Shown here: one piece after another, positions 7,391-52,373 of the stretch
Numbering within the stretch: position 1 is the first letter of the stretch
How the letters are laid out: every line of letters begins with the position of its first letter
NCBI RefSeq assembly: GCF_004801295.1
Contig: NZ_SSOC01000005.1
Coordinates: 310,001-374,000, forward strand
Length of the DNA: 64,000 nt
DNA from: Pseudothauera nasutitermitis
GTDB lineage: Bacteria > Pseudomonadota > Gammaproteobacteria > Burkholderiales > Rhodocyclaceae
Direction of reading: 5' to 3'
Position numbers and translations under genes: made by a program
The notes under the pieces: generated by a model
What the model saw: the letters and a program-made list of their open reading frames with translations, nothing else
Told to the model about the DNA's origin: nothing
Database searches by the model: none

Positions 7391-8809
7391 ATGAATACAG
7401 TCTGGATCGTTGACGACGACCGTTCCATCCGCTGGGTGCTGGAAAAGGCGCTCGGCCGGGAGGACATCCCCCAGCGCAGCTTCACCTCGGCCAGCGAGGC
7501 GCTGGCCGCCCTGGACGACGAGCCTCCCCCCAAGGTGCTGGTTTCCGACATCCGCATGCCGGGCGAATCGGGGCTGGACCTGCTGCAGAAGGTCAAGACG
7601 CGCTACCCGCAGCTGCCGGTGATCATCATGACCGCCTACTCCGACCTGGAGAGTGCGGTGGCCGCCTTCCAGGGCGGCGCGTTCGAATACCTGCCCAAGC
7701 CCTTCGACGTGGATCAGGCCGTCGCACTGGTTCGGCGAGCGATCGACCAGAGCGCGCACCAAGTTGGTGCAAACGTGGAGCCCACCTTCGCGCCGGAAAT
7801 CCTCGGCCAGGCGCCCTCCATGCAGGAAGTCTTCCGCGCCATCGGCCGGCTCTCCCAGTCCCATGCCACCGTGCTGATCAACGGCGAATCGGGCACCGGC
7901 AAGGAACTCGTCGCGCGTGCGCTGCACCGCCACAGCCCGCGCCGCGAGGCCCCGTTCATCGCCATCAACACCGCGGCCATCCCGCGCGACCTGCTGGAAT
8001 CCGAACTGTTCGGCCACGAGCGCGGCTCCTTCACCGGCGCCGCCACGCAGCGCCGCGGGCGCTTCGAACAGGCCGAGGGCGGCACCCTGTTCCTCGACGA
8101 AATCGGCGACATGCCCCCCGAACTGCAGACCCGCCTGCTGCGCGTGCTGTCCGACGGGCACTTCTACCGCGTCGGCGGCCACCAGCCGATCAAGGCCAAC
8201 GTGCGGGTCATCGCCGCCACCCACCAGAACCTGGAAGACCGGGTGCGCCAGGGCCTGTTCCGCGAGGATCTGTTCCACCGCCTCAACGTCATCCGCCTGC
8301 GCCTGCCGGCGCTGCGCGAACGCCGCGAGGACATCCCCATCCTGGTGCGCCACTTCCTGCAGAAAAGCGCACAGGACCTCGGCGTGGAGCCCAAGCGCAT
8401 CTCCGAAGTGGCCCTCAAGTACCTGCAGGCCCTGCCCTTCCAGGGCAACGTGCGCCAGCTGGAAAACCTGTGCCACTGGCTCACCGTGATGGCGCCCGGG
8501 CAGACCGTGGAAGTCGCCGACCTGCCGCCCGAGATGCGCGACCAGCCGCAGCAGGAAATCCCGGTGAACTGGACCGACGGTCTGGGCATCGAGGCCGACC
8601 GGCTGATCGCCACCCACCCCGGCGAAGTGTTCGACCGTCTCACCCGCGAATTCGAACGCACGCTGATCCGCCGCGCGCTCACCGCCACCGGCGGACGGCG
8701 CATCGACGCTGCACAACTGCTGGGCATCGGGCGCAACACCATCACCCGCAAGATCCAGGAACTGGGCATGGACGACGAGCGCGGCGGCGGGCACGAAAGC
8801 ATGGACTAA
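7391..8809 (+). CDS. glnG: Nitrogen regulation response regulator NtrC (sigma-54 activator)
   Basis: NtrC activates sigma-54 promoters such as glnA under nitrogen limitation. The 472-residue protein has a receiver domain with phosphoacceptor Asp53 (VSDIRMPG), an AAA+ domain with Walker A GESGTGKE, Walker B GGTLFLDEIGDMP, and a C-terminal Fis-type helix-turn-helix (TGGRRIDAAQLLGIGRNTI). The sigma-54 contact loop reads GSFTGA (residues 212-217) rather than the usual GAFTGA. An NtrC-type palindrome lies inside the gene at codons 122-127. The stop codon TAA is the first part of structured repeat element 1. Confidence 0.96.
   Translation: MNTVWIVDDDRSIRWVLEKALGREDIPQRSFTSASEALAALDDEPPPKVLVSDIRMPGESGLDLLQKVKTRYPQLPVIIMTAYSDLESAVAAFQGGAFEYLPKPFDVDQAVALVRRAIDQSAHQVGANVEPTFAPEILGQAPSMQEVFRAIGRLSQSHATVLINGESGTGKELVARALHRHSPRREAPFIAINTAAIPRDLLESELFGHERGSFTGAATQRRGRFEQAEGGTLFLDEIGDMPPELQTRLLRVLSDGHFYRVGGHQPIKANVRVIAATHQNLEDRVRQGLFREDLFHRLNVIRLRLPALRERREDIPILVRHFLQKSAQDLGVEPKRISEVALKYLQALPFQGNVRQLENLCHWLTVMAPGQTVEVADLPPEMRDQPQQEIPVNWTDGLGIEADRLIATHPGEVFDRLTREFERTLIRRALTATGGRRIDAAQLLGIGRNTITRKIQELGMDDERGGGHESMD
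7755..7771. promoter_or_regulatory. NtrC-type palindrome inside ntrC
   Basis: CGCACCAAGTTGGTGCA matches 13 of the 14 defined positions of the NtrC consensus, closer than the glnA site. It lies in the linker between receiver and AAA+ domains, 387 bases downstream of the site in front of ntrC. Whether it is bound is not known. Confidence 0.55.
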
Positions 8810-9076
8810 GAGTCTGTTCCCGATCTTTTCATGGGGTCCGTTGCCCCGGCAGGCAGGCTGAGGCAAGGCGCAAACCGCAGGCGGGCTGGTGGCCCGGCGA
8901 GGATTTGCAACGCCGCAGCAGCCTGTCTGCCGGGGCAACCGGCAGGGCAGCCGCCCAAAGCGCCCCGCTCTGCGTTGCACGGCTTGCCAAGACACCCGGT
9001 ATTGGCTGCGCCGCGCGCCTTGAGCGGAACACTTTGGGCGGCTGCGGACCCCATGAAAAGATCGGGAACAGGCTCT
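8809..9076. repeat. Nested palindromic repeat, element 1 (268 bp)
   Basis: Outer arms 8809-8840 and 9045-9076 pair at 31 of 32 positions. Inside are two further hairpins: A (8841-8860 with 8919-8938, 19/20 paired) and B (8947-8960 with 9032-9045, perfect; its last base is shared with the outer arm). Loop A holds GGCAAGGCGC (8862) and GCAACGCCGC (8907). Loop B holds GCGTTGC (8972) and GCGCCTTGA (9015), roughly the inverted complement of loop A. The same plan recurs at 52051-52317 with other stem sequences. The element begins on the last base of the ntrC stop codon. It has no convincing coding frame and no transposase. The remaining 127 bases up to 9203 show no clear signal. Confidence 0.85.
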
Positions 9077-9203
9077 CAGGCAACCCGCGCGGGGGCGCAT
9101 GGCCACCCCCGCAGGACATGCGCATCGCCCTCCTCCGGTCTTCCGCAAGAATCTGCCAGAATGCAGGCCGCCGACCCCGGCTCTTGAAGGAACGACCGAC
9201 ACC

Positions 9204-30172: not shown

Positions 30173-33100
30173 ATGACGCACGCACCCGGACCGGATCTCG
30201 GCCCGCTCACCTGGGTCAAGGGCGAGATCGACAACGCGCTGGCGCGCGCCGCCGAGGGACTGGAGGAAGCCGCCGGCGCCGCCGAACCAGCGGCCCGCAT
30301 CCAGTTCGCGCAGACTCACCTGCACCAGGCGCGCGGCGCGTTGTCCATCGTCGGCCTCGACGGCCTGACCCAGTTCGCCGACGCGCTCGACCAGCTGTTC
30401 GGCGCCGCCGCGCGCGGCGAAGTGCCCAGCGACGAGGCCTTGTTCAAGGTCGGCCGGCGCGGCCTCGCGGCCATCGCCAACTACCTCGACGAACTCGCCC
30501 ACGGCGCCATCGACCAGCCGTTGCGCCTGGCCGGCCTGTACGGCGAAATCCAGACCCTGCGCGGCCGCGAATACTCGGCCGTGGACCTGTTCTTCCCCGA
30601 CCTCGGCCGGCGCCCGCCCCGGCGCGGCGGTCAGGCCACGGTGCCCGAGGCCGCCCGGCGCGGCCACCTGCGCACCCTGCGCGCGCGCTTCGAGCGCGGC
30701 CTGCTCGGCTGGCTGCGCGTCCCGGCGTCCCCGGAAGGCCCGCAGGCCATGCGCGAGGCCGTGGTGGAAATCGAGCGCGTGCTCGCCGCCACACCCGCAC
30801 GCACGCTGTGGTGGGCCGCCATCGCCCTGTTCGACACCGCAGAGGGGCAACCCCTGCCCCAGGACGACACCGCCCGCCGGCTGTGCGCGCGGCTCGATGC
30901 CCAGTTGCGCCGCACGCTGGGCGGCAGCACCGCAGTGCCCGATCGCCTGCTGCGCGAAGTGCTCCATCGCATCGCCGTCACCCCGGCGGTCACCGCCCAC
31001 CAGCACGCCGTGCGCGAAACCTGGGCGCTCGACACCCTGGTTCCCGAAGCCGGCGCCACGGTCAGCGACGCACCGCTCGGCCCGCTGCTGCAAAACCTGC
31101 ACGGCAAGCTCAACAACGCCAAGGAAACCTGGGACAGCTTCTGCACCGGCAACGCCGCCGCGCTGCAGCGCTTCGAAACCCAGCTCGGCGAACTCGCCCA
31201 GCAGGCCGCACAGCTCGGCCGGCCGCCGTTCTCCCGGCTGCTGGTCGGCCTGGACGGTTTCCTGCAGTGGCTGCGCAAGGATCCGCTGCAACTCAACGAA
31301 GCCCTCTCGCTGGAGATCGCCACCGCCCTGCTGCTCGGCGAATCCGCGCTGGACCGGGGCGGTCCCGACCCCGCCTTCTCCGCCCAGGTCGCCGACACGC
31401 TCAAGCGCATTGCCGCGCTGATGCGCGGCGAAGCGGTGGAAACCGCCGAACTGTCGCCCACCGCCCAGGGTGCCCGGCGCAACCAGGAACGCGACGCGCT
31501 GGCCCAGCTTGCCCGCGAAATCCTGGTCAGCCTGGCGCAGGTCGAACAGACCCTCGACGACTTCTTCCGCAACCACGAGAAGCGTGCCCCGCTGGCCGGC
31601 CTGGCCGGGCCGCTGCACCAGATCGAGGGCGCGCTCAGCCTGCTGGGCGATGAAGAGGCCCTTGCCCTGGTCCACGGCGCCGCGGAGGAAATCGCCGCCT
31701 TCGCCGCGGCCACCGACGAACCCGACGCGGAAGCCACCGCAGCCCTCGCCCATCGTCTTTCCGCGCTGGGTTTCTATATCCAGGCGCTGCAACACGGACC
31801 GGCCTCGCTGGACGCCTTCCTGAACCCGGGCGCGGCCGGGGAAGAGAGCGCAGAGCTCGAAGAGGCCGAGTACCCCCCACCCGAAGCGGCGGACGAAACC
31901 ACGGCGCCGGCCATCGAACCCGCGCCGGCCCCGGCCCGGACGGCAGCACCGGCTGCCGCAGAGCCCCCTCCGGCCGAACCCACCGCGCCACCCGCCGAGG
32001 AAGAACCCGCGCCGCCGGAAGCCGCCCCCGACGAGTTCGATGCCGAGGATCTGCCGCCGCCCCCGCTGGAAATCCCCGCGCCGGCAGCCGAAACCCAACG
32101 CCTGATCGAGGCCAGCGACGCCGAGGTCGACGCCGAGCTGCTGGAAATCTTCATCGAAGAAGCCCAGGAAGTGCTTGCCTCGATCGGCGAGCATCTCGAA
32201 CTGTCGCGCACCGAACCGTCCAACACCGAGTACTTCACCGCCATCCGGCGCGGCTTCCACACCCTCAAGGGCAGTGGCCGCATGGTCGGCCTGCGCGACC
32301 TGGGCGAAAGCGCCTGGGGCATGGAACAGACGCTCAACCGCTGGCTGCAACTCGAATGGACACCCACGCCGGCGCTGCACCACCTTGTCGATGCCGCCCA
32401 CCAAGTATTCTCCGACTGGGTGGCGCAACTGCATGCCGGCGGCGCACACCAGCGCGACACCGCCGCGTTGCTCGCCGAGGCCGAACGCCTGCGCGACAGC
32501 GAACAGCCGATCCACGATCCGTTGCCGATCGCCGATGCCGTCGTGCACAGCGCCGAAACGCCTGCCGAACCCGAGCGTTTCGAGTTCGACCTGTCGCTCT
32601 CGGAAGAAGGCGAAGTCCTGCCGGTGGCGCACACCGACGGCCCCCCGGCGGAGCAGGCGGCGGACGACGCCACCTCCACGGTACTCGGACTGGCCGACTT
32701 CAACGCACCGCCCGACGATACGGTCGAGGAAGCACTGGAGAGCATCGACCTCGAAATCCTCGGGGACGAATTCGACTCCGAAGAGGCGGAAGCGCCCCCC
32801 GCAGCGCCCGTCGACGAACAGGCCCCGCCCCCGCCTGACGCGGAGCAGACCGAAGCGGGGGCGGCTGAAGAGATCGAGCTCCAGCCTCTCGCCCCGATCG
32901 CCGAACAAGCGCCGCCCGCCACCGACACAGCGGAGGCCGAAGCGCCGCTGCTGGAGCACAGCGCCCCGGACGACGCGGACGCGCTCCCCGCCGCCGAAGC
33001 CGGCTCGCCCGCCGACACCTGGCCCGACGACGAGAACGCCGACTTCATCCGCATCGGCGACGCCGAGATCTCGCGCCCACTGTACGACCTCTATCTGGCC

Positions 33101-35815
33101 GAGGCGCGCCACCATCTGAGCACGCTGCATCAGGAAATCGTCCGCCTGCGCGCCAACCCCACGCAGCCGCCGCTCGAGGTGGCGGTGCGTGCCGCGCACA
33201 CGCTGGCGGGCATTTCCGGCACCGCGCGCCTGACACCCCTGCAGGCCCTCGCCCGCGCGCTCGAATACGCCCAGGCGCGCTGCCGCGACAACCAGTTGCC
33301 GCCCAGCGCGGAACAGGTCGCACTGCTGCAGAGCAGCCTGGAAACCCTCGAGGCGATGCTCGTCGAAGTCAGCGCGCGCACCCTGCCGCTGCCCGTGCCG
33401 GAACTCATCGAGCAGCTCGAGACGGTCGGCCGGCGCCCCGCCGAGGACGAAACTCCGCCCCCGCCAGCACTCGGCGGCGACACGCCCGACGCGCTGCTCC
33501 CGCCCCAGGACGAAGCCCCCGCGCGCGAAGCCCCGCCGCCGGTGCATGACGAAATCGATACCCAGCTGCTGCCCATCTTCCTGGAAGAAAGCGGCGACCT
33601 GCTCGGCGAACTGCACGGCGCATTGCGCGCCTGGCGCAACGAGCCGGACAGCGACGAATTCGCCCAGCGCCTCGCCCGCCAGTTGCACACGCTGAAGGGC
33701 AGCGCGCGCATGACCGGGGCGATGAACCTGGGCGAGCACGTCCATCAGATGGAAACCACGCTGGAGGCCGCCCGCCGCGCGGGCAGCGATCCAGCCGCGA
33801 TCATCGACGAGCTCGAAAGCAGCCTGGACCTCGCCGAACAGGCCATCGACGCGCTGGCCAGCGGCGACACCGGCGCCCCGCGGCCCCCGTCCGCCCCCCT
33901 CGCGGCAGCGCCCGGCGACGACGCCCCCCGGCCGGCGGCACCTGCCGCCGAACCCGTCGAAGTCGCCGCCGAACACGAAACCGGCTCGGGCAGCGCCACG
34001 CTGCGCGTGCGCGCCGACGCGGTCGACCACTTCGTCAACCAGGCCGGCGAAATCGGCATCGCGCGCACCCGCATCGAAGGCGAACTGCGCACCCTGCGCC
34101 GCTCGCTGCTCGACCTCACCGAAAACGTCATCCGCCTGCGCAACCAGCTGCGCGAGGTGGAAATCCAGGCCGAAGTGCAGATGCAGTCGCGCATCGCCCA
34201 GGCCGAAAGCCATCACGCGGAGTTCGACCCACTGGAGATGGACCGCTACACCCGGCTGCAGGAACTCACCCGGATGATGGCGGAGAGCGTCAACGACGTC
34301 ACCACGGTGCAGCAGAACCTGCTGAAGAACCTCGACGGCGCCGACGTCGCCCTGCACGGCCAGGCGCGCATGTCGCGCGAACTGCAGCAGGCGCTGATGC
34401 AGGTGCGCATGGTGCCCTTCGAGAACCTCGCCGACCGCCTGCACCGCGTGGTGCGGCAAAGCGCCAAGGACCTCGGCAAGCGCGCCACGCTGGACCTGCG
34501 CGGCGGCCGCATCGAACTCGACCGCGGCGTGCTGGAGCACATGGTCGCGCCGCTCGAACACCTGCTGCGCAACTCCATCGCCCACGGCATCGAGGCGCCC
34601 GCCGCGCGCCGCGAGGCGGGCAAGGCCGAAATCGGCGAGATCACCCTCACCGTGCGCCAGGAAGGCAACGAAATCGCCATCGACCTGGCCGACGACGGCG
34701 CGGGGCTCGATTTCGCCCGCATCGCCGAACGCGCGCGCGCCAACGGCCTGCTGGGCGCCGACGAACAGGCGGACGAGAAGCGCCTGACCAACCTGATCTT
34801 CGTGCCCGGCTTTTCCACCGCCGGCTCGGTGTCCACGCTGTCCGGCCGTGGCGTCGGCATGGACGTGGTGAAGTCCGAGACCGCCGCGCTCGGCGGCCGC
34901 CTCGACGTTTCCAGCCAACCCGGCCAGGGCACGCGCTTCCGCATCTACCTGCCGCTCACCCTCGCGGTCACCCAGGCGCTGCTGGTGCGCGCGGGCAACC
35001 GCAGCTGGGCCGTGCCGTCCAGCATGATCGCCCAGGTGCTCGAGCTGAAGGCCGATGCCCTCGAACGCCTGCGCACCGAAGGCGGCACCGAATGGCAGGA
35101 CGAGCATTACAGCTACCGCTACCTGCCCCGCCTGCTCGGCGACCGTCATACCCAGCCCGAGGTGCAGCGCTTCAACTGGATACTGCTGCTGCGCGCCGGC
35201 GCGCAGACCCTGGCGCTGCACGTGGACGGCCTGCGCGGCAACCAGGAAATCGTCGTCAAGAACGCTGGCCCGCAGGTCGCCCGCCTGGTCGGCGTGTCCG
35301 GCGCCACGGTGCTGGGCGACGGCGAGATCGTGCTGATCCTCAACCCGGTGGCGCTCGCCAGCCGTGGGCTGGGCGCGGGCCAGGACGCCGCCGGAAGCGA
35401 CGGCGCGCTGGCCGCCGCCCCGCTGGCCGCACCGGCCCCCGCGCACATCCCCACCGTCATGGTGGTGGACGACTCGCTCACCGTGCGCAAGATCACCGGC
35501 CGCCTGCTCGAACGCGAGGGCTACCGCGTGATCACCGCCAAGGACGGCGTGGATGCGCTGGAAAAGCTGCTGGAAAGCGTGCCCGATGTGGTGCTCTCCG
35601 ACATCGAGATGCCGCGCATGGACGGCTTCGACCTGGTGCGCAACATCCGCGCCGACGAGCGTACGCGTGCCGTGCCGGTGATCATGATCACCTCCCGCCT
35701 GGCGGACAAGCACCGCCGCTACGCGGAGGAAGTGGGCGCCAATCACTACCTCGGCAAGCCTTACCAGGAAGAGGAACTGCTGGCCCTGCTGGCGGGTTAC
35801 ACCGGCGCACACTGA
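30173..35815 (+). CDS. pilL: Chemosensory hybrid kinase PilL/ChpA
   Basis: An 1880-residue CheA-like kinase that drives PilG and PilH. Three Hpt domains have clear phospho-histidines: HTLKGSGR (residue 696), HTLAGIS (1009) and HTLKGSAR (1172). The N-terminal 600 residues look like two further degenerate Hpt/FimS-like helical domains, followed by very acidic, proline-rich linkers. Then come the CheA dimerisation region, HATPase (LEHLLRNSIAHGIEAP, GRGVGMDVV), a CheW-like domain and a C-terminal receiver with Asp1810 (VLSDIEMPRMDG). Pseudomonas ChpA has more phosphotransfer modules and is longer. pilK and chpB (methylation genes) do not follow. Confidence 0.93.
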   Translation: MTHAPGPDLGPLTWVKGEIDNALARAAEGLEEAAGAAEPAARIQFAQTHLHQARGALSIVGLDGLTQFADALDQLFGAAARGEVPSDEALFKVGRRGLAAIANYLDELAHGAIDQPLRLAGLYGEIQTLRGREYSAVDLFFPDLGRRPPRRGGQATVPEAARRGHLRTLRARFERGLLGWLRVPASPEGPQAMREAVVEIERVLAATPARTLWWAAIALFDTAEGQPLPQDDTARRLCARLDAQLRRTLGGSTAVPDRLLREVLHRIAVTPAVTAHQHAVRETWALDTLVPEAGATVSDAPLGPLLQNLHGKLNNAKETWDSFCTGNAAALQRFETQLGELAQQAAQLGRPPFSRLLVGLDGFLQWLRKDPLQLNEALSLEIATALLLGESALDRGGPDPAFSAQVADTLKRIAALMRGEAVETAELSPTAQGARRNQERDALAQLAREILVSLAQVEQTLDDFFRNHEKRAPLAGLAGPLHQIEGALSLLGDEEALALVHGAAEEIAAFAAATDEPDAEATAALAHRLSALGFYIQALQHGPASLDAFLNPGAAGEESAELEEAEYPPPEAADETTAPAIEPAPAPARTAAPAAAEPPPAEPTAPPAEEEPAPPEAAPDEFDAEDLPPPPLEIPAPAAETQRLIEASDAEVDAELLEIFIEEAQEVLASIGEHLELSRTEPSNTEYFTAIRRGFHTLKGSGRMVGLRDLGESAWGMEQTLNRWLQLEWTPTPALHHLVDAAHQVFSDWVAQLHAGGAHQRDTAALLAEAERLRDSEQPIHDPLPIADAVVHSAETPAEPERFEFDLSLSEEGEVLPVAHTDGPPAEQAADDATSTVLGLADFNAPPDDTVEEALESIDLEILGDEFDSEEAEAPPAAPVDEQAPPPPDAEQTEAGAAEEIELQPLAPIAEQAPPATDTAEAEAPLLEHSAPDDADALPAAEAGSPADTWPDDENADFIRIGDAEISRPLYDLYLAEARHHLSTLHQEIVRLRANPTQPPLEVAVRAAHTLAGISGTARLTPLQALARALEYAQARCRDNQLPPSAEQVALLQSSLETLEAMLVEVSARTLPLPVPELIEQLETVGRRPAEDETPPPPALGGDTPDALLPPQDEAPAREAPPPVHDEIDTQLLPIFLEESGDLLGELHGALRAWRNEPDSDEFAQRLARQLHTLKGSARMTGAMNLGEHVHQMETTLEAARRAGSDPAAIIDELESSLDLAEQAIDALASGDTGAPRPPSAPLAAAPGDDAPRPAAPAAEPVEVAAEHETGSGSATLRVRADAVDHFVNQAGEIGIARTRIEGELRTLRRSLLDLTENVIRLRNQLREVEIQAEVQMQSRIAQAESHHAEFDPLEMDRYTRLQELTRMMAESVNDVTTVQQNLLKNLDGADVALHGQARMSRELQQALMQVRMVPFENLADRLHRVVRQSAKDLGKRATLDLRGGRIELDRGVLEHMVAPLEHLLRNSIAHGIEAPAARREAGKAEIGEITLTVRQEGNEIAIDLADDGAGLDFARIAERARANGLLGADEQADEKRLTNLIFVPGFSTAGSVSTLSGRGVGMDVVKSETAALGGRLDVSSQPGQGTRFRIYLPLTLAVTQALLVRAGNRSWAVPSSMIAQVLELKADALERLRTEGGTEWQDEHYSYRYLPRLLGDRHTQPEVQRFNWILLLRAGAQTLALHVDGLRGNQEIVVKNAGPQVARLVGVSGATVLGDGEIVLILNPVALASRGLGAGQDAAGSDGALAAAPLAAPAPAHIPTVMVVDDSLTVRKITGRLLEREGYRVITAKDGVDALEKLLESVPDVVLSDIEMPRMDGFDLVRNIRADERTRAVPVIMITSRLADKHRRYAEEVGANHYLGKPYQEEELLALLAGYTGAH

Positions 35816-51967: not shown

Positions 51968-52050
51968 GGTGCGTTCCTCTGGGTGAGTGAAATAAAAAGG
52001 TGGGCGGATACTAAACCATGGTGGGCATCTTGCCTACCCGCCCGACCGCT

Positions 52051-52317
52051 AGGGCATATTCACGCTATCCGCGGCGGATCGCGTGGGTCTGTGTGGCTGT
52101 CTGGCAAGGCGCGCGAGGCCGTCAAGGGTGGTTCCCTTGACAACGAGCGCAACGCCGCCAGACGGCCACACAGACCCACCCGAAGGGCCGCCACCCAACC
52201 GGGCGCATCTCGGCGTTGCGGCTCCTTGCAAGGCTGCAGCATTGCCGCGTCGCCGCGCCTTGATCTGCGCCCGGTTGGGTGGCGGCGCGACCGCCGGGGA
52301 TAGCGTGAACATGCCCT
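52051..52317. repeat. Nested palindromic repeat, element 2 (267 bp)
   Basis: Outer arms 52051-52077 and 52291-52317 pair at 25 of 27 positions. Hairpin A pairs 52083-52105 with 52157-52179 (22/23) and holds a further small hairpin (52121-52128 with 52134-52141). Hairpin B pairs 52187-52207 with 52266-52286 (21/21). Loop motifs GGCAAGGCGC (52103), GCAACGCCGC (52149), GCGTTGC (52213) and GCGCCTTGA (52255) lie at the same offsets, within 2 bases, as in element 1, although the stem sequences differ. The flanks 51968-52050 and 52318-52373 show no other clear signal. It lies downstream of queF and upstream of the cytochrome gene. Confidence 0.87.
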
Positions 52318-52373
52318 GGTCCGGTCAAGGACATAACGCACGAATCCATGGGCCGGTTGACAGCCCGGGCGGC

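Follow-up and report, generated by a model that had tools for sequence, protein, structure and literature searches.

Probable MITEs in Pseudothauera nasutitermitis carry a covarying double-hairpin module found in many Pseudomonadota

Introduction

Short elements that lack a transposase gene, target TA, and occur as dispersed copies with internally deleted derivatives are familiar as IS5-family (IS427-type) MITEs. The elements studied here share these traits, and for one group of terminal repeats their inverted ends equal those of an autonomous IS. They differ in their interior, which neither of the two ISs examined contains, and in that a covarying double-hairpin module spans unlike terminal repeats in many Pseudomonadota. 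REP/REPIN and TIRYT repeats, as far as the available passages of PMC3733652 describe them, are likewise palindromic and repeated and form paired hairpins of opposite polarity; our elements differ from that description in being ~250 bp long and TA-bounded, with variable stems around a conserved core and no association with Y1 found. The Coxiella repeats QMITE1/QMITE2 (PMC5896051) and the Pseudomonas fluorescens R-family repeats (PMC2718517) are also MITE-like and have strong predicted folding; the available portions of those papers mention neither a core shared between genera nor stems that covary, and on this basis we provisionally set them apart. No description of the present family was found in the titles, abstract openings, and passages searched, which included parts of PMC3733652, PMC10969869, PMC5896051, and PMC2718517.

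We read the two segments reported here as MITEs that would be moved in trans by IS5-type transposases and that carry a conserved two-hairpin module, a reading to which we assign a probability of about 0.8. Its MITE part is well supported.

Results

Architecture of the two elements

The window, i.e., the whole 64-kb stretch of DNA analyzed, holds two elements with the parts listed below. Bit scores come from model R1, a covariance model of one hairpin; its E-values are rough, and the genome survey described later used stricter filters.

8807..9078, no strand: element 1 whole, including boundary dinucleotides; the left TA falls within the upstream ORF's stop codon, the right is now CA
8809..8840, no strand: element 1, left outer (terminal) inverted arm
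8842..8937, + strand: element 1, hairpin A, with core CAAGGCGC...GCAACGCC on the + strand; 74.4 bits
8939..8947, no strand: element 1, junction CCGGCAGGG, a degenerate form of CCCNNNGGG
8948..9044, - strand: element 1, hairpin B, with the same core on the - strand; 82.7 bits
9045..9076, no strand: element 1, right outer arm
52050..52318, no strand: element 2 whole, including boundary dinucleotides; left TA, right now TG
52050..52082, no strand: element 2, left outer arm, TAGGGCATATTCACGCTATCC...
52083..52179, + strand: element 2, hairpin A; 93.1 bits
52179..52187, no strand: element 2, junction CCCGAAGGG
52189..52284, - strand: element 2, hairpin B; 78.4 bits
52285..52318, no strand: element 2, right outer arm

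The plan and length proposed in the initial annotation stood, and its boundaries shifted slightly. Element 1 starts from the TA inside the stop codon TAA (8807-8809) of ORF 7391-8809, and CA occupies 9077-9078 just 3' of its right arm; element 2 starts from the TA at 52050-52051 and has TG at right-end bases 52317-52318. In neither copy is the right-hand TA still intact. Re-measurement reproduced the offsets claimed for the four cores (element 1/element 2): GGCAAGGCGC at 53/52, GCAACGCCGC at 98/98, GCGTTGC at 163/162, and GCGCCTTGA at 206/204. The fourth core is the reverse complement of the first and the third that of the second, so that the four cores are really two and the element, as far as its cores go, reads alike on both strands.

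The predicted fold bore out the proposed arrangement of outer arms around two hairpins. An outer stem encloses two hairpins of opposite polarity separated by a short junction of the CCCNNNGGG type, and folding z-scores were -13.5 for element 1 and -16.5 for element 2, none of 200 shuffles of each folding equally well. Scanning the window with model R1 returned exactly four hairpins, those of elements 1 and 2, and the pattern GGCAAGGCGC-N20..50-GCAACGCC matched twice in the 64 kb versus 0.01 matches expected from shuffles. The window also holds a very long open frame on the + strand (30173-35815, 1880 aa).

Fetched loci yielded 104 distinct four-core elements. CCCNNNGGG lies near the middle in 90, taking the form CCCTTCGGG or CCCGAAGGG in 62; element 1 is among the 14 without it. 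Ends could be set by script in 59 of the 104, some of them at inner TA sites, and 50 of these 59 have one of the 12 most frequent lengths, which lie at 241-272 bp and are far below IS size. Longer variants of ~323 bp between terminal repeats occur at two loci of one genome (L179 and L189 of G064), with extra core-like copies at one end.

In an alignment of 41 hairpins (alignment A1), a near-invariant frame consists of CAAGGCGC on the left and GCAACGCCG on the right; the cores are partly unpaired and the stems between them variable. The hairpin has a variable stem of ~22 bp and, flanking GGC/GCC, AA and AAC bulges; a second variable stem, of 5 bp, leads through an internal loop to an apical stem that varies as well. 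The core may resemble the enterobacterial REP stem and attC sites.

Pairing is kept while stem sequence varies

The suggestion that these elements form a family in which pairing is kept while sequence varies was supported by alignment A1, in which 88.9% of cells pair versus 53.3% when shuffled and 37-41% when slid. The structure scored was one that we specified. To arrive at the 41 hairpins, 19 of 60 units were dropped by hand without a written criterion, and those 60 had themselves ranked highest by pairing score among 76 already filtered on stem pairing; because units were thus preselected, the outer-stem pairing figure is biased upward. The two inner helices played no part in sequence choice, and pair at 83.3% and 82.0%. 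A covariance test of the stems pointed the same way: 609 cells changed on both sides versus 201.5 in shuffles, with a covariation score of 0.854 versus 0.192. The number of pairs with two-sided change (35/41 versus 34.4 in shuffles) is uninformative alone.

Selection on the cores alone, with no stem filter, gave 84 nonredundant units whose mean Watson-Crick fraction was 0.73, against 0.30 (maximum 0.33) with arms swapped, in a pool that includes loci fetched with model R1, which itself rewards pairing. Sixty-one of these units reach 60% pairing; the other 23 fall below 60% in a fixed register.

Strand asymmetry and probable arm-to-arm copying

In the 61 well-paired core-only units, non-canonical pairs near the core are distributed unequally between strands. 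At positions 1-4 the CAAGGCGC strand has GA/AG 45 times and CT/TC 0 times, and at positions 5-9 it has GT 49 times versus AC 6 times; at positions 10-22 the difference is not significant (GT 19 versus AC 13). A stem-filtered unit set gave a small nonredundant G-T excess at positions ≥10 (12 versus 7). One-sided changes between near copies show the same preference at positions 5-9 (GT 32 versus AC 3, p 4e-7), no wobble bias at positions 10-15 (GT 9 versus AC 10), a bias again at positions 16-22 (25 versus 8, p 0.005), and the reverse direction at positions 1-4 (GT 0 versus AC 4). The CAAGGCGC strand is predicted to be more stable than its complement in 48 of the 61 units with RNA parameters and in 52 with DNA parameters. 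Because every element has one such hairpin per strand, strand-biased mutation should cancel, and we therefore attribute the proximal bias to selection acting on a single strand that folds. That core-near non-Watson-Crick pairs favor one strand suggests that this is RNA or ssDNA.

Near copies also bear on another explanation, namely that these are ordinary MITEs whose functionless stems are matched only via intrastrand template switching between the arms of long DNA palindromes. Coincident two-sided changes number 86, versus 19.7 expected were the sides independent, and 44 of 82 Watson-Crick-to-Watson-Crick changes are of the transversion type, which cannot pass via a G-T step; the lack of wobble bias at positions 10-15 is a further point in its favor. 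The coincident and transversion-type changes speak against a purely selective reading, and arm-to-arm copying probably contributes to kept pairing. Such copying should, however, erase the unpaired AA/AAC and the G-A mismatches, which instead stay conserved or strand-biased, and even the closest pairs have 70 one-sided versus 20 two-sided changes. We consider it unlikely that arm copying is the whole explanation.

Ends, target sites, and empty sites

The elements have inverted, TA-bounded ends. Among the 59 elements with script-set ends, 86 of 118 ends start TAG. The clearest series comes from genome G687, in which near-identical copies are dispersed at TA: the 18 fetched copies of one 262-263 bp family have TA on the left in 16 cases and on the right in 17, and at the three exceptions a TAGGGC-type end abuts. 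TAGGGC-type ends and the 263-bp element are nested within each other at TA at four loci (L307, L311, L314, L323); at L323 the copy interrupts a TAGGGCCTGTTAACACTAA end and is flanked by TA left and right, i.e., a TA duplication at a nested insertion. At L308 a different element type, alike in hairpin core and with another terminal repeat (TTAACCCGGCGAC...), directly adjoins the first.

A comparison of orthologous sites, proposed with the initial annotation, proved informative for element 2. Its matched flanks are separated by a gap of 67 bp in relative G001 versus 326 in the window, and by 77 versus 335 bp in G004; taken from coordinates, the gap is 64 versus 332 in G005, 75 versus 332 in G002, and 165 versus 445 in G003. 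In all five same-genus relatives the gap is thus shorter by 257-280 bp, about one element, as judged by length and not to the base.

Insertion sites lie preferentially at gene ends. Using a crude gene finder, we could classify 57 of 67 sites, of which 22 are convergent, 27 tandem, and 8 divergent; by the same crude calls the median distance is -1 bp for 71 gene tails and 22 bp for 43 heads, so that tails are nearer. A stop-codon test gave a modest result, with 33 of 118 ends coinciding with an in-frame stop that closes a frame of ≥100 open codons, versus 13 and 22 when the frame was shifted. The pattern is consistent with insertions at TA being tolerated close to gene ends, and it puts many copies where read-through transcription would include them. 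The gene-end bias would also suit a chromosomal regulatory RNA or terminator family that is kept by the host and not mobile. This we regard as highly improbable, given that element 2 is missing by gap length from all five relatives and showed no syntenic conservation across species, that G687 carries near-identical dispersed copies at TA, and that some element ends equal the ends of ISs.

IS5-type transposases as candidate mobilizers

The shared ends involve one group of terminal repeats, TAGGGCC/TAGGGCG, for which an autonomous IS and the elements have ends in common. Between two pairs of TA-bounded inverted ends, spaced 828 and 819 bp, lie ISs: L199 encodes DUF4096 and DDE_Tnp_1 domains and L200 a DUF4096 domain, a second L200 stretch giving no domain match. 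These two-frame ISs are of the kind labeled IS427-type. In a protein search, 13 of 185 genomes of the class had a relative of the L199 protein, and an inverted TAGG-type pair of at least 16 nt is present at 13 of 30 loci similar to it, including TAGGGCCTGTTAACACTAA, TAGGGCGTGTTAACACTAAT, and TAGGGCGTGTTCACAGTAA. The IS ends TAGGGCCTGTTAACACTAA and TAGGGCGTGTTCACAGTAA also terminate double-hairpin elements (L073, L135).

Of 11 genomes with such a transposase, five have the hairpin, with 86 matches in G687 and 146 in G725 among the best 150 candidates scored in each; the other six gave no hairpin match. In the draft genome of the window itself, no IS427-type ORF A or transposase was found. In genome G082, a single contig rich in copies, the terminal repeat forms no IS-sized pair even with 1 mismatch allowed, and none was seen in G043. 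The IS that is co-resident in G687 has a terminal repeat different from that of the 263-bp family, for which the fetched stretches contain no matching IS. Because of the negatives in the window's own genome, G082, and G687, the mobilizer link is limited to the TAGGGCC/TAGGGCG group and does not extend to most repeat types or to the window copies.

The interior of many MITEs, although not of all, derives from a parent IS. Here, model R1 found the hairpin in neither L199 nor L200, so that the interior is no mere deletion remnant of these ISs.

The elements might alternatively be REP/REPIN-like repeats, moved by a Y1 (RAYT) transposase that recognizes the hairpins as ssDNA. The opposite polarity of the hairpin pair, with one readable per strand, and the strand-biased non-canonical pairs would suit such a system, and Y1_Tnp genes are present in 8 of 10 genomes tested. 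The hairpin nevertheless occurs at none of 14 Y1 loci (43,274 bases, E up to 0.01), neither the window's own genome nor G397 has a Y1_Tnp match, and TA-bounded ends together with DDE-type ISs having equal ends point elsewhere. A Y1-driven origin thus seems very doubtful, and a RAYT/Y1 partner was rejected on the absence of the hairpin from those 14 loci.

Distribution of the family

Further copies of the elements exist at several scales. A core search at set spacing, as proposed in the initial annotation, found the strict three-core pattern in 2 of 61 genomes, the window's own and one of 60 relatives, and an exact scan of named genome contigs found at least 120 stretches elsewhere, mainly in Beta- and Gammaproteobacteria with a few records named otherwise. 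A looser core pattern gave 17 matches in the window's genome that, by reading, amount to 8 full elements (the window's two included), 2 shortened ones (L007, L012), and 1 single-hairpin element; L005, L016, and L017 are probably chance matches. The single-hairpin element (L006, ~1483-1571) scores 58.2 bits with model R1 and has a different terminal repeat, TAGTGTCGCGACACCCATCGGAT. The same genome has an 86-bp derivative and five 47-bp outer hairpins alone (L018, L020, L027, L031, L035), stand-alone near-perfect palindromes that consist solely of two terminal repeats, e.g., TAGGGCGTGTTCACGCGATCCGCCGCGGATCGCGTGAACACGCCCTA; model R1 lists further places in it.

Across a sample of Pseudomonadota, model R1 matched 78 of 249 genomes, about a third, at E up to 1e-5, with at least 16 matches in each of 7 genomes. 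A terminal-repeat pattern at up to 1 mismatch occurs in 51 of 300 genomes, some by chance, as a reversed control also matches. Rfam gave no match above the gathering threshold in the window and 20 further loci; a lax search (E up to 10) of the two window elements returned 8 and 9 matches, mostly to microRNA precursors (best E 0.013), all well below gathering. In a plasmid collection, blastn found 2 Variovorax records for a Variovorax copy and none for element 2, a result that does not show absence from plasmids because the stems diverge; of two terminal-repeat probes, one gave 3 weak plasmid matches and the other none. The double-hairpin family is apparently large, widespread, and unnamed.

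Discussion

Our reading of these segments as MITEs with a conserved interior goes beyond the initial annotation in three respects: mobility with IS5-type ends, the reverse-complement relationship of the hairpin partners, and the one-strand bias of core-near non-canonical pairs. In the mechanism we envisage, an IS5/IS427-type transposase would act on the ends and place the element at TA sites, many of them close to the 3' ends of genes, where the insertion may do little harm. The interior is a conserved module of two opposite-polarity hairpins that is common to unlike terminal repeats, and the strand reading CAAGGCGC...GCAACGCCG would be the folding, active one. With one such hairpin on each strand, the module should work in either insertion orientation.

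Function of the module is the part of this reading that reaches furthest from the data. Folded RNA in the read-through 3' ends of transcripts is the likeliest acting form, at close to even odds. An ssDNA structure at replication or transposition comes second and is possible, if clearly less probable. The main null, that pairing arises chiefly as a side effect of copying between palindrome arms, seems unlikely. A tentative proposal, somewhat short of an even bet, is that the double hairpin acts as a portable, non-coding device that is independent of any single transposase, occurs with many unlike terminal repeats, and has spread through Pseudomonadota. Its strand-specific fold, with G-A pairs and AA/AAC bulges, would be present once per strand and be recognized as RNA or ssDNA by a host or element protein, giving the element or the host mRNA a selectable property.

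The hairpin occurs in about a third of the Pseudomonadota genomes sampled, yet has no Rfam match. The persistence of its structure through sequence change is unusually clear-cut, and the element that carries it looks selfish. With this family one can test whether a functional RNA or ssDNA fold resides in bacterial MITEs or whether they are empty shells.
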